Source: Haloterrigena sp. H1 (GTDB lineage Archaea; Halobacteriota; Halobacteria; Halobacteriales; Natrialbaceae). From it: 64,000 bases of DNA. Positions 3,880 through 12,002 of the stretch are shown in pieces. The DNA lies in NCBI RefSeq assembly GCF_005938085.1, contig NZ_SMZK01000001.1, positions 1,674,001 through 1,738,000 of the forward strand, written 5' to 3'. The position numbers were made by a program, and so were the translations under genes. The first letter of the stretch is position 1; every line of letters begins with the position of its first letter. The notes beneath the pieces were generated by a model, which had not been told where the DNA came from, ran no database searches, and worked only from the letters and a program-made list of their open reading frames with translations.

Positions 3880-4153
3880 GCGCTCGCTCTATGGTAGTGG
3901 ATTATCACGAGACTTTAACTTTTGGAATTTTTTCAGTCCAGTCAAACTACATCGGTGACGTATTAGTCTACTGGCCGTCAGCCGGGGATGGCGGGAGCGA
4001 AGGTTGACAAACGCCCAGTCGAACGGTAACGAAGCAGTCGATCCAGCGAATCGAGTTTCACACACCGGGATTGGAGAGCGGGCCGATCGATACCGGCCAC
4101 CTGACGATCGGCACAAGTCCTATTAGTCGACGCGGTGAATGCGATCCGGTACC

Positions 4154-5404
4154 ATGACTGGGATCGAATACGACGACTTTCTGGACCTCGGGTACGAGCC
4201 AGCGACGACGGACCTGACCTGTGAGTTTACCATCGAACCGGCCGCGGACATGTCGATGGAGGCGGCGGCGAGCCGGGTCGCCTCCGAGTCCTCGAACGGT
4301 ACCTGGGCAGCACTCCACGTCGACGAAGACGAACTGACGGATCTCGGTGCGGTGGCCTGCGAGATCGACGGCAACGCAATCACCGTCGCCTATCCCGATG
4401 CATTGTTCGAGGCCGGCAGCATGCCCCAGATCCTCTCGTGTATCGCGGGGAACATCCTGGGGATGAAAGCCGTCGACTCGATCCGGCTCGAGGACTGCCA
4501 CTGGCCGGACTCGATCGTCAGTGGCTTTCCGGGCCCGCAGTTCGGCACGAGCGTCGCCCGCGAAAAACTCGATGCCGGCGAGCGACCGGTACTGGCGACG
4601 GTCCCGAAACCGAAGGTCGGCCTCTCGACTGCAGCCCATGCCGACATCGGTGAGGAGGCTTGGCGCGGCGGCATCGACCTACTGAAAGACGACGAGAACC
4701 TCACTGATCAGGAGTTCAATCCCTTCGAGGACCGCCTGGCGGAGAGCCTCGCGGCTCGCGACCGTGCACAAGAGGCGACGGGCGAACGCAAGGACTACCT
4801 CGTGAACGTGACCGCAGAAACCACTGAAATGTTAGACCGCGTCGATCTCGTGGCCGAACACGGCGGTGGTTTCGTCATGATCGACGTGATCACCTGCGGC
4901 TGGGCAGCCGTCCAGAGCGTCCGCGAGCGCTGCGAGGACCACGGTCTGGCGATTCACGCCCATCGTGCGATGCACGCCGCCTTCGACCGGCTCGAGCACC
5001 ACGGCGTCTCGATGCGGGTCATCGCCCAGATCGCCCGGCTCTGTGGCGTCGATCACATCCACACCGGCACTGCTGGACTCGGCAAACTCGCAAACGAAGA
5101 CACGCCCGGGATCAACGCCTGGCTTACGGGCGAGTGTCACGGACTGAAGCCAGTGCTGCCGGTTGCGTCCGGCGGACTTCATCCCGGTGTCGTCGACCAA
5201 CTCCTCGAGGCGCTTGGCACCGACATCATCGTCCAGGCCGGTGGCGGCGTCCACGGCCACCCCGACGGGACCCACGCAGGCGCGAAAGCCCTCCGGCAGT
5301 CCGTCGACGCGTCGATGGCGGGCGAGTCGCTCGCGGACTACGCCGACGACCACCCGGAACTGGCGACAGCCCTCGAGAAGTGGGGGGCAGAGACGCCACG
5401 GTGA
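4154..5404 (+). CDS. rbcL: Ribulose-bisphosphate carboxylase, form III (archaeal) large subunit
   Basis: 416 residues. Catalytic and metal-binding motifs are all present: PKPKVGLS with the active-site lysine at about K152; GGIDLLKDDE with the carbamylated lysine at about K178 and metal ligands D180 and E181; IHAHRAMHAAF with histidines near 268-270; HTGTAGLGK; and GGGVHGHPDGTHAGAKALRQ near the C-terminus. Archaeal form III enzymes take ribulose-1,5-bisphosphate made from AMP by AMP phosphorylase and ribose-1,5-bisphosphate isomerase, so the role is nucleotide salvage into 3-phosphoglycerate rather than a Calvin cycle; neither partner gene is in this window. The ATG at 4154 was preferred to one 15 nt upstream because MTGIEYDDFLDLGYEP is the usual start. 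Confidence 0.95.
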   Translation: MTGIEYDDFLDLGYEPATTDLTCEFTIEPAADMSMEAAASRVASESSNGTWAALHVDEDELTDLGAVACEIDGNAITVAYPDALFEAGSMPQILSCIAGNILGMKAVDSIRLEDCHWPDSIVSGFPGPQFGTSVAREKLDAGERPVLATVPKPKVGLSTAAHADIGEEAWRGGIDLLKDDENLTDQEFNPFEDRLAESLAARDRAQEATGERKDYLVNVTAETTEMLDRVDLVAEHGGGFVMIDVITCGWAAVQSVRERCEDHGLAIHAHRAMHAAFDRLEHHGVSMRVIAQIARLCGVDHIHTGTAGLGKLANEDTPGINAWLTGECHGLKPVLPVASGGLHPGVVDQLLEALGTDIIVQAGGGVHGHPDGTHAGAKALRQSVDASMAGESLADYADDHPELATALEKWGAETPR

Positions 5405-7665: not shown

Positions 7666-7703
7666 GCGGCGGACGATCACGAGATCGTGACCGTCCAAAA
7701 ACA

Positions 7704-7710
7704 TTATATA
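7704..7710 (+). promoter_or_regulatory. TATA box of the biotin operon
   Basis: The heptamer ttatata, preceded by a purine-rich BRE-like ccaaaaaca, is centred at about 7707, 26 nt before the GTG at 7733. This is the canonical distance for a transcript starting at the first base of the start codon, so bioB is probably leaderless. Confidence 0.65.
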
Positions 7711-7732
7711 CTCGTTAACCGCCATTCTGAGT

Positions 7733-8839
7733 GTGGTTTACGAGACTGGAAACGAGACGGTCGACGACGCACTCGAGCGGGTCGTGGCCAGCGAGCGACT
7801 CGACCGGACCGACGGGTTAGCGCTGATGGCCCAGCCGGTCGACGTCCTCGCCGAAGCCGGTGCGGCCGTGCGCGATCACTTCGGTGATGGCACGGTCGAT
7901 GCCTGCTCGATCGTCAACGCGAAAGCGGGCAACTGCGCCGAGGACTGTGGGTTCTGTGCGCAGTCGGTCCACTTCGACACCGGCATCGACACCTACGGCT
8001 TCCTCGGCCCGAAGAAGGTCCTCGAGGCCGCGAAACGCGCCGAACGTGACGGTGCCCAGCGCTTCGGGATCGTCGTCGCGGAGAAAGGCGTCTCGAAGGA
8101 ACACCGGCCCGAGGAGTGGGCGGAGGTCATCGAGTCGATCCGCCTCGTGCGCGACGAGTGTGATCTCGAGGTCGACGCCTCCCTTGGCATTCTCACCGAG
8201 GAGGAGGCTGCGATCCTCGCCGAGGAGGGGATCAACCACTACAATCACAACATCGAAACCTCGCCGAACTACTTCCCCGAGATCGTCGACACCCACAGCT
8301 TCGAAGATCGGGTGAAGACCCTCGAGGTCGCCAAGGAGGCCGGCATGGACCTCTGTGCGGGCGTCATCCTCGGGATGGGCGAGACCCCGACCGATCGCGT
8401 CGAGGCCGCTATCGCGCTGCAGGACATCGGCATCTCCTCGCTGCCGGTCAACGTCCTCAACCCGGTCGAGGGAACGCCACTGTACGAGCAGGGTGTCGGC
8501 ATCTCGACCGAAGAGATCGTGAAGACGGTCGCGGTGTACAAACTCCTGCATCCCGAGTCGCGGGTCCGCCTGACCGGCGGCCGCGAGGTCAACCTCGCCC
8601 CCGACGAGCAGCACCTGCCGCTGGAAGCCGGCGCGGACGGCCTGCTCACCGGCGACTACCTCACGACAGAGGGCCAGTCACCCGGCGAGGATATCGAGAT
8701 CATCGAGCGCGCGGGGCTCGAGCCCAACCGGGAGACCAACGAGTTCGACCCCGAGGAAGTGAAGGCCCGCCACAGCGACGCCGCGGAGTCGTCGACCGAG
8801 ACAGCAGCACGAACAGGCGCAGAACCGAGCGACGACTGA
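7733..8839 (+). CDS. bioB: Biotin synthase
   Basis: 368 residues. The radical-SAM cluster motif is CAEDCGFC (C68, C72, C75), followed by the BioB-specific AQSVHF. Further BioB motifs are NAKAGNC, YNHNIETSPNYFP, CAGVILGMGE and VNVLNPVEGTPL. It inserts sulfur into dethiobiotin in the last step of biotin synthesis, using a [4Fe-4S]/SAM cluster and a sacrificial [2Fe-2S] cluster. The ~45-residue C-terminal tail (from about residue 325) is acidic and Ala/Ser-rich and is probably a halophilic extension. It is first in a four-gene operon, 27 nt before the next gene. The GTG start is supported by the leaderless TATA spacing. Confidence 0.95.
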   Translation: MVYETGNETVDDALERVVASERLDRTDGLALMAQPVDVLAEAGAAVRDHFGDGTVDACSIVNAKAGNCAEDCGFCAQSVHFDTGIDTYGFLGPKKVLEAAKRAERDGAQRFGIVVAEKGVSKEHRPEEWAEVIESIRLVRDECDLEVDASLGILTEEEAAILAEEGINHYNHNIETSPNYFPEIVDTHSFEDRVKTLEVAKEAGMDLCAGVILGMGETPTDRVEAAIALQDIGISSLPVNVLNPVEGTPLYEQGVGISTEEIVKTVAVYKLLHPESRVRLTGGREVNLAPDEQHLPLEAGADGLLTGDYLTTEGQSPGEDIEIIERAGLEPNRETNEFDPEEVKARHSDAAESSTETAARTGAEPSDD

Positions 8840-8866: not shown

Positions 8867-9925
8867 ATGGACGACGTTACGTTTGCGGTACTCGGAACCG
8901 GCGGTATCGGCCGACGAGCACTCGAAGTGAGCCAGTACAAAGACGCCCTGACACCCGTTGCGGCGTGTGACCGCCACGGGACCGCGATCGATTTCGACGG
9001 CCTCGACGTCGACGAACTACTCGAGGCAACCGAGGGCAACATCGATAACGAGGTTGCAACTGACGGCGGAGCGGACGCGGCGGCCGTCGAAGGCGGCGTC
9101 AAACAACACGGCGAAGACCTCGGCGTCGTCGCCTCCGAACAGGCCCGCCCGAGCGAGGATCCGATCCAGGACGTAATCGACCACGGCGACGAGATCGACG
9201 CCGTCCTCCTCGCACTGCCCAACTACGAACACGACTTCATCCCGCGGACCGCCGAGCGGTTCATCGAGGGTGACTACTCCGGCGTCATGATCGACGTGCT
9301 CAAACGCTCGCGCGTGATCGATATGCTCGACGACCGCCGCGAGGCGTTCGAGGACGCCGGCATCACCTTCATCTGTGGCGCGGGCGCGACGCCCGGCCTG
9401 CTGACCGGCGCGGCGGCGCTCGCTGCCCAGTCGTTCGTTGAGGTCACGGACGTCGACATTCACTGGGGCGTCGGCCTCAAATCCGGCTACGAGGACAACC
9501 GCGGCACCGTCCGCGAGGACATCGCCCACCTCCCCGACTACGACATCGAGACCGCTCGAGAACTCTCCGAAGAAGAGATCGAAGAAATCATCGACGACCA
9601 CGACGGCGTCATCGAGTTCGAGGACATGGAACACGCAGACGACGTGCTCCTCGAGCGTGCGGGCGTCTGCGACGCCGAAGACGTCACGGTCGGTGGCATC
9701 CTCGACGTGTACAACGACGAGAAGCCGACGACGACCACGGTGCGTGTCACCGGCCGAACCTTCGACGGCGAGACCGCGACGAACACCTTCCACCTCGGCG
9801 ACGAGACGAGTATGGAAGCGAACGTCAACGGGCCCGCGCTGGGCTATCTGAAGGCCGGCGTGCGACGGAACCGCGCCGGTGAATACGGCGTCTTCGGCCC
9901 TGCCGAACTGATGCCCGGCTTCTGA
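8867..9925 (+). CDS. bioU: BioU-like Rossmann protein, probable single-turnover KAPA-to-DAPA enzyme
   Basis: 352 residues. The N-terminus FAVLGTGGIGRRALEV is a dinucleotide-binding Rossmann fold like saccharopine or homoserine dehydrogenases. A later segment, GVMIDVLKRSRVIDML, holds K146, followed by FICGAGATPGLLTGAAALAAQSF. Sitting exactly where bioA would be expected, between bioB and bioF-bioD with no aminotransferase gene in the operon, it matches BioU. In cyanobacteria BioU converts 8-amino-7-oxononanoate to 7,8-diaminononanoate by giving up the side-chain nitrogen of its own lysine, so each molecule works once; haloarchaeal relatives are known. I infer that K146 is the sacrificed lysine from its context, not from an alignment. 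The alternative is an ordinary saccharopine-dehydrogenase-like oxidoreductase. Confidence 0.8.
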   Translation: MDDVTFAVLGTGGIGRRALEVSQYKDALTPVAACDRHGTAIDFDGLDVDELLEATEGNIDNEVATDGGADAAAVEGGVKQHGEDLGVVASEQARPSEDPIQDVIDHGDEIDAVLLALPNYEHDFIPRTAERFIEGDYSGVMIDVLKRSRVIDMLDDRREAFEDAGITFICGAGATPGLLTGAAALAAQSFVEVTDVDIHWGVGLKSGYEDNRGTVREDIAHLPDYDIETARELSEEEIEEIIDDHDGVIEFEDMEHADDVLLERAGVCDAEDVTVGGILDVYNDEKPTTTTVRVTGRTFDGETATNTFHLGDETSMEANVNGPALGYLKAGVRRNRAGEYGVFGPAELMPGF

Positions 9926-10083
9926 CGACACCGCGACGAGCTTCTTCGCCCTTTCTGTGAGATGGATACACACACTGACCAAGAACAGTCTCATACCGAC
10001 AAGGAGCCGACCGAATCGAGCAGAATCCGACGATCGATCCGAACCGTGAGAGTCAAACCGTGGCGCTGAGTCCGTTTAGCCGA

Positions 10084-11307
10084 ATGGCCGACCGTGGGTT
10101 CGACCTCGAGGACCGACTCGAGACCCTCGAGGAACACGACTTGAAACGCTCGCTCTCGCCCGTCGATCGGGTCGCCGAGCGCGGCTACTTCGCCGAGCCC
10201 TCGGGCGGCGACCTGCCCGTGCTCGATTCGGCGGAGGCGCTGGTCTTTGCTTCGAACAACTATCTGGGGCTGACGGACGACCAGCGGGTCCAAGACGCCG
10301 CACGGCAGGCTGCCGCGACCGTGGGCACGGGAGCCGGCGCGAGTCGGCTCGTCACGGGCGACACGATGGTCCATCGGGACCTAGAGCGGCTGCTCGCCGA
10401 GACGAAAGGAACCGAGCGCGCGCTGGCCTTTTCGTCGGGCTACGCCGCGAACGTCGGGACGATCACGGCGCTCGAGCCGGATATCGTCTTCTCCGACGAA
10501 TTAAATCACGCGAGCATCATCGATGGCTGTCGGCTGTCGGATGCCGAGACCGTCGTTTACGATCACTGCGATGCGGCGAGCCTGCGATCGAAGCTCGCGG
10601 AGCGAGCCGATCAGGCGAGACAGGACGGCCGAAACCCGGCCGACGAATCCTGGCTGATCGTCACCGACTCGGTGTTCAGCATGGACGGCACCGTCGCCCC
10701 GCTCGCGGCGATCTGTGACGCTGCCGAGGAGTACGGCGCGTGGGTGATGGTCGACGAGGCCCATGCGACCGGCCTCTACGCGAACGGCGGCGGCGTCGTC
10801 CAGGCCGAAGGGCTCGAGGACCGCATCCAGATCCAGCTGGGGACGCTCTCGAAGGCGCTGGCCAGTCAGGGCGGCTACGTCGCCGGCAGTACCGAACTGA
10901 TCGAGTGTTTGATCAACGAGGCACGCTCGTTCGTCTTCTCGACGGGGCTTGCGCCGCCGGCCGCTGCCGCCGCGAGCGAGGCGTTGCATATCGCTCGCCA
11001 CAGCGACGTTCGTGAACGCCTCTGGGAGAACGTCGCACATCTCCGCGACGGCCTCGAGACGATGGGCTTCGAGGTGTTGGGCAACTCCCAGATCCTGCCC
11101 GTGGTCATCGGTGACCGACAGGACGCACTCGCGCTCGCGGATGGCATCCGCGAACGAGACGTCGTCGCACCAGCGATTCGACCGCCGACGGTTCCCGAGG
11201 GGACGAGCCGAATTCGCGTCGTCCCGATGGCGACACACGATCAGGACGACGTCATCACCTGTCTCGAGGCGTTCCGCGCCGCGGGCGAGGAGGTCGGGGT
11301 GCTGTGA
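10084..11307 (+). CDS. bioF: 8-amino-7-oxononanoate synthase
   Basis: 407 residues, an alpha-oxoamine synthase (PLP, fold type I). Motifs in order are FASNNYLGLT, GTGAGASRLVTGD, FSSGYAANVGT, SVFSMDGTVAPL, VDEAHATGLY and TLSKALASQGG, the last with the PLP-binding lysine near residue 261. It condenses pimeloyl thioester with alanine to give KAPA. No pimelate-forming genes are visible nearby, so the source of the pimeloyl group is unknown from this window. The ATG at 10084 (MADRGFDLEDRL) was preferred to a GTG 24 nt upstream. A 158-nt gap separates it from bioU, and it overlaps bioD by 4 nt. Confidence 0.93.
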   Translation: MADRGFDLEDRLETLEEHDLKRSLSPVDRVAERGYFAEPSGGDLPVLDSAEALVFASNNYLGLTDDQRVQDAARQAAATVGTGAGASRLVTGDTMVHRDLERLLAETKGTERALAFSSGYAANVGTITALEPDIVFSDELNHASIIDGCRLSDAETVVYDHCDAASLRSKLAERADQARQDGRNPADESWLIVTDSVFSMDGTVAPLAAICDAAEEYGAWVMVDEAHATGLYANGGGVVQAEGLEDRIQIQLGTLSKALASQGGYVAGSTELIECLINEARSFVFSTGLAPPAAAAASEALHIARHSDVRERLWENVAHLRDGLETMGFEVLGNSQILPVVIGDRQDALALADGIRERDVVAPAIRPPTVPEGTSRIRVVPMATHDQDDVITCLEAFRAAGEEVGVL

Positions 11308-12002
11308 CCGCGACCCAGCCGATCGCCGTCGTCGGCACCGGGACCGGCGTCGGGAAGACGGTTATCACGGCTGGCCTCACACGCTTGCTTCGCGAGGCCG
11401 GCCACGACGCGCGGGCGATCAAGCCGGCCCAGACGGGTCATCCGCCCGACGACGACGCGGCGTTCGTCGCCGCGGCCTGTGCCGATCCCGAGGCTGCAAG
11501 CTGTCCGCGATATCTCGAGCCAGCACTGGCCCCGCGCGTAGCGGCCGAGGTCGCCGACGAATCCCTCTCTTACGAGACGATCCGTGCCGCATGTGAACGC
11601 GAGATCGACGCGACTGCAGTCCCGATCGTCGAGGGCATCGGCGGGCTACGAGTGCCGTTGGCCGGCGACCACGAGGTGATCGATCTCGTTTCCGACCTCG
11701 AGGCCGCGGCGGTCGTCGTCACACGGTCGGGCCTGGGGACACTCAATCATACCGCACTCTCGATCGACGCACTCGAGGCCCGCGGGATCGACGTCGTCGG
11801 TATCGTCTGCAACGAGTATGCCGGCGAGACGGTCGCCGAACGGACCAACCCAGCCGAACTCGAGCGGATGACCGGCTACCCGGTCGAGACGGTGCCGCCG
11901 CTGGCTGACGATGCGACTGCGGATCCGCGTCAGATGGCTATCGGTGTCGGGGATGAACTGTCGCCAGCGTTCCGGGAGTTACTGCCGAGAGAAAGCAGCT
12001 GA
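11304..12002 (+). CDS. bioD: Dethiobiotin synthetase
   Basis: 232 residues starting at a GTG overlapping the bioF stop (GTGA). The P-loop VVGTGTGVGKTVITAGL is at residues 9-25, followed by AIKPAQTG and the VEGIGGLRVPL segment near residue 111 that contacts substrate and Mg2+. It closes the ureido ring of dethiobiotin from DAPA, CO2 and ATP. As last gene of the operon it completes bioB-bioU-bioF-bioD. Members need DAPA as substrate, which supports the assignment of the second gene as the DAPA-forming step. Confidence 0.93.
   Translation: MTATQPIAVVGTGTGVGKTVITAGLTRLLREAGHDARAIKPAQTGHPPDDDAAFVAAACADPEAASCPRYLEPALAPRVAAEVADESLSYETIRAACEREIDATAVPIVEGIGGLRVPLAGDHEVIDLVSDLEAAAVVVTRSGLGTLNHTALSIDALEARGIDVVGIVCNEYAGETVAERTNPAELERMTGYPVETVPPLADDATADPRQMAIGVGDELSPAFRELLPRESS

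Follow-up and report, generated by a model that had tools for sequence, protein, structure and literature searches.

The biotin operon in the window, the 64,000-nucleotide stretch of Haloterrigena sp. H1 DNA analyzed here, contains no aminotransferase gene, raising the question of which protein takes the step from KAPA to DAPA that BioA/BioK (TIGR00508) performs elsewhere. BioA/BioK aminotransferases are PLP-dependent, multi-turnover enzymes with a fold unrelated to that of BioU. The earlier note had assigned this step to the second gene of an aminotransferase-free operon, bioB-bioU-bioF-bioD, and both the gene order and the profile matches agree with that arrangement, in which bioU begins 27 bases past bioB:

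7733–8839, + strand: bioB, biotin synthase, with a probable leaderless GTG start (TIGR00433, 335 bits; cut-off 225)
8867–9925, + strand: bioU, (S)-8-amino-7-oxononanoate synthase BioU homologue (NF047886, E = 4.6e-102; PDB 6ir4, 6k36, 6itd, 6k37, and 6k38, E ~1e-85; fold Z 22.8)
10060–11307, + strand: bioF, 8-amino-7-oxononanoate synthase (TIGR00858, 404.6 bits, just below the cut-off of 426)
11304–12002, + strand: bioD, dethiobiotin synthase, with a 4-base overlap with bioF (TIGR00347, 105 bits; cut-off 83)

We consider it highly probable that 8867–9925 encodes a haloarchaeal BioU standing in for the aminotransferase BioA, with chemistry of the Synechocystis type and an operon that is probably on only at low biotin. 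The bioB-bioU-bioF-bioD order is maintained in most haloarchaeal loci compared, and at distant loci bioB, bioF, and bioD alone accompany bioU, among the window genes compared. A separate promoter for bioU was considered and rejected, as no TATA element could be clearly made out at a suitable distance when the 27-base gap was inspected by eye. As for the pimelate source, searches of the window genome return no match for BioW and none at cut-off for BioC; cyanobacteria present the same gap (PMC12903740).

Identity and fold of the window BioU

The bioU reading frame starts with ATG and encodes 352 amino acids. NF047886 (BioU) is the sole NCBIfam family matching the protein, at 341 bits, below the equivalog cut-off of 600 bits. 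This cut-off is a curatorial threshold for automatic annotation and describes no biological property of the enzyme; it is reached by 0 of the 391 haloarchaea sampled. A Pfam search yields no match. Searched against all PDB sequences, the protein has strong matches only to the five entries listed above, all chains of Slr0355, the BioU of Synechocystis sp. PCC 6803, with ~46% identity over 313 aligned residues, a level that does not imply the same turnover number. The similarity is specific and nearly full-length, no other characterized enzyme family is matched, and the earlier identification of the second gene as bioU is thereby borne out. Comparison of bioU with one or more relatives of ~75–77% identity reveals differences of 42, 47, and 138 at the three codon positions, mostly at the third, indicating that the reading frame is under protein-level selection.

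The AlphaFold2 model, of moderate confidence (mean pLDDT 69, pTM 0.66), predicts a BioU fold with an NAD(P)-binding Rossmann domain and aligns with all five BioU structures at Z 22.3–22.8. Homoserine and amine dehydrogenases follow (Z ~14.5–12, with homoserine dehydrogenase at 14.5), and then saccharopine dehydrogenases (Z ~10). The kinship to saccharopine dehydrogenase proposed earlier therefore holds only loosely, the specific relative being BioU itself (Z 22–23). Three features of the coding sequence are referred to below:

9026–9124, + strand: linker insertion, residues 54–86, 33 residues here and of a length that varies between species
9302–9304, + strand: codon of Lys146, the putative sacrificial residue and counterpart of Synechocystis Lys124 (aligned with the K124A chains 6itd and 6k37)
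9632–9634, + strand: codon of His256, the counterpart of Synechocystis His233 (aligned with the H233A chain 6k38)

The linker measures ~10 residues in Slr0355 and 8–67 residues in complete haloarchaeal copies; residues 58–83 of the window protein, within the insertion, are modeled with pLDDT <50.

Catalytic residues and proposed reaction

PDB entry titles describe 6itd and 6k37 as BioU K124A and 6k38 as BioU H233A. In residue-level alignments, window Lys146 occupies the position altered in K124A (LKR becomes LAR), and window His256 the position altered in H233A (EDMEH becomes EDMEA). The motif DVLKRSRV begins at residue 143, which makes its lysine Lys146; the earlier note, which had named this residue as the candidate sacrificial lysine, numbered it correctly, and the alignment with cyanobacterial BioU that it proposed finds a lysine at the position of Lys124. 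Of the 87 aligned sequences, 86 have lysine at this position, and the remaining one (L087) is truncated before it. His256 does not vary among the haloarchaeal copies long enough to include it, nor does the glycine motif G10, G12, G13, and G15 across the aligned sequences. By sequence, predicted fold, and residues, the window protein belongs with cyanobacterial BioU.

In Synechocystis BioU, as described in PMC12915131 and PMC7133116, Lys124 and 8-amino-7-oxononanoate condense in a step that uses NAD(P)H, CO2 is taken up as a carbamate, and oxidation by NAD(P)+ frees DAPA-carbamate from an enzyme that is then spent. The same lysine and histidine are present in haloarchaeal BioU, which makes the same chemistry its best reading. 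A condensation between the Lys146 amine and the product of BioF, 8-amino-7-oxononanoate, would come first, followed by reduction of the adduct with NAD(P)H. The Lys146 conjugate would then capture CO2 as a carbamate, and NAD(P)+ oxidation would release diaminopelargonate-carbamate to BioD, converting Lys146 to allysine, such that each BioU molecule would act once. We infer single turnover of the archaeal enzyme by analogy with Slr0355.

One or many turnovers cannot be told apart from sequence, and the related folds include amine dehydrogenases; BioU might perform BioA's step with the same lysine and have that lysine regenerated, for instance through reductive amination of allysine with an amine donor. 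This multi-turnover scheme is improbable, as the catalytic Lys/His pair matches that of the single-turnover Synechocystis enzyme and no recycling gene stands out among the window genes compared, where bioB, bioF, and bioD are the only companions of bioU.

The single-use reading is preferred, and the enzyme resembles Slr0355 in fold (Z ~22.5), in the equivalents of Lys124 and His233, and in standing in for BioA alongside BioF, BioD, and BioB. It differs in its longer, variable linker, its tight bio operon, and its archaeal setting. A literature search returned no description of a haloarchaeal BioU, nor biochemical or genetic data for an archaeal form of the enzyme; the original BioU paper may mention haloarchaeal BioU. 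Haloarchaeal BioU is a known kind of enzyme in a new, broad setting, and a one-use enzyme characterized in cyanobacteria would hereby be extended to archaea.

Absence of BioA and distribution of BioU

A bioA elsewhere in the genome, raised earlier as a finding that would count against BioU, was not detected at cut-off in the window genome. The BioA model (TIGR00508) matches five class-III aminotransferases there, all at ≤230 bits where 405 are required; these five fit acetylornithine/GABA-type, LysJ/ArgD-type, and HemL-type models better. In the profile search, the cut-off is reached in 0 of 391 Halobacteria; among the controls, the archaeon M. jannaschii exceeds it, as do E. coli and B. subtilis. 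The ten top-scoring class-III aminotransferases from other haloarchaea (L091–L100) have no bioB, bioF, or bioD within the ~4 kb read around them. A BioA hidden among the class-III aminotransferases was rejected on these grounds: the scores, the better-fitting models, and the lack of bio neighbors.

Strong BioU matches, defined as E < 1e-30, occur in 150 of 391 Halobacteria and bioB in 177. Both are found in 149 genomes, BioU without bioB in one, and bioB without BioU in 28 (Fisher p ~1e-77, relatedness ignored); in the single BioU genome lacking a bioB match, bioB is split into two pieces (L120). Weaker NF047886 matches (E ~1e-4 to 1e-8), present in most genomes, were counted as dehydrogenase relatives, not as BioU. 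In a phylum-wide draw of 197 genomes, BioU is found in eight, all within the window's own order, and the viral contigs searched contain no BioU relative.

The 28 bioB-positive, BioU-negative genomes are spread over several families. Among 50 genomes checked, bioD reaches its cut-off in all 22 with BioU and in none of these 28, a joint loss of bioU and bioD that is expected if BioU supplies BioD's substrate. Of 16 bioB-only loci read (L101–L116), most retain bioB alone and three also bioF; one of the three, L102, carries a C-terminal bioU remnant (8396–8553) between bioB and bioF, with no bioD beside bioF and none at cut-off in its genome. The bioB left over after loss of bioU and bioD likely serves dethiobiotin salvage.

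These losses, together with the profile scores, also bear on the assignment of BioA's step to a class-III aminotransferase encoded at another locus, with bioU doing another job. The five weak matches to the BioA model are what speaks for such an assignment, which we judge very unlikely: their scores and better-fitting models point elsewhere, comparable weak matches occur in Halobacteria irrespective of BioU or bioB, and bioU and bioD are lost jointly. That BioU performs the step is instead indicated by sequence, fold, the aligned lysine and histidine, gene neighborhood, the absence of BioA, and the joint loss with bioD. In the sampled haloarchaea, BioU seems to provide the sole route to DAPA, and would account for the apparent absence of bioA in haloarchaea with a biotin operon. 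On balance, we lean toward a wider proposal in which Halobacteria as a class lack BioA and make all their biotin through suicide BioU, with BirA curbing the expense of spending one protein on each biotin, and in which BioU moved between cyanobacteria and haloarchaea in a rare interdomain transfer event.

Several loci depart from the standard arrangement. Pairs of bioB and bioU with bioF and bioD undetected nearby are seen at L117 (5301–7482), L073, L056, and L057, and apparently frameshifted or truncated bioU copies at L118 (5639–6806), L082, and L087. Halorientalis salina carries two BioU loci (L067 and L073), and another genome, G230, has two strong BioU matches. Complete bioB-bioU-bioF-bioD operons are present on haloarchaeal plasmids at L133, L134, and L135, where BioU is labeled either "transcriptional regulator" or hypothetical.

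Promoter, putative operator, and public names

Two elements immediately precede and overlap the start of bioB:

7695–7710, + strand: probable archaeal BRE/TATA promoter element CCAAAAACATTATATA, presumed to function as such, with its TATA center ~26 bp before the bioB GTG
7711–7744, + strand: putative BirA-type operator, inverted repeat CTCGTTAACC-N14-GGTTTACGAG, its right half within the first bioB codons

Most of the 17 haloarchaeal upstream regions aligned retain the BRE/TATA element. The operator half cores and the 14-base spacer are common to 17 haloarchaeal loci, including Haloferax and Natronococcus plasmid copies. Because the right half shares bases with the opening codons of bioB, themselves conserved, its conservation alone is weak evidence; the left half, being non-coding, is the stronger sign. 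The repeat is expected by chance 0.01 times in the window, and in the window genome the motif occurs solely at the biotin promoter and its duplicate. As quoted in PMC545781, the BirA consensus operator is TTGTAAACC-[N14/15]-GGTTTACAA; the inner halves and the spacing of the haloarchaeal site agree with it, with the outer T/A bases changed to C/G. One biotin ligase is encoded in the window genome, away from the operon, a BirA with an N-terminal HTH domain (HTH_11).

The arrangement resembles bacterial BirA-regulated biotin operons in its operator consensus and in a BirA with an N-terminal HTH, and differs from them in that the haloarchaeal site overlaps a probable leaderless start, its right half encoding the first BioB residues. 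The operator motif at the promoter and the HTH domain of BirA make it likely that BirA represses the operon when biotin is plentiful, acting through the putative operator. With this operator overlapping its start, the operon would be on only at low biotin, and such repression, if true, would hold down the expense of an enzyme that works only once. Haloarchaea with an intact operon offer systems for studying both the cost and the control of a suicide enzyme.

In public plasmid records, six of seven BioU relatives are named "transcriptional regulator" and one is hypothetical. Beyond this product name, nothing commends BioU as a regulator of the biotin operon, a role hardly credible for a protein that has no DNA-binding domain (no Pfam match) and matches a crystallized enzyme over nearly its full length, with a separate BirA carrying HTH_11 suited to that task. 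The public name is misleading and is supported by no domain.

The duplicate of the operator lies in a ~21-kb repeat that includes the whole biotin operon (window 7503–28683) and recurs on contig C4 of the window genome (G000) at 136722–157873 with 99.7–100% identity. The repeat has a sharp left break within an amidase gene and runs to the contig end; it is either a true duplication, giving two bioU copies, or assembly redundancy, the listed contamination being 6.14%. A RuBisCO large-chain gene (4139–5404) lies a few kb upstream of the operon, and such a gene is also found near bioB in many related loci, some of them without bioU.
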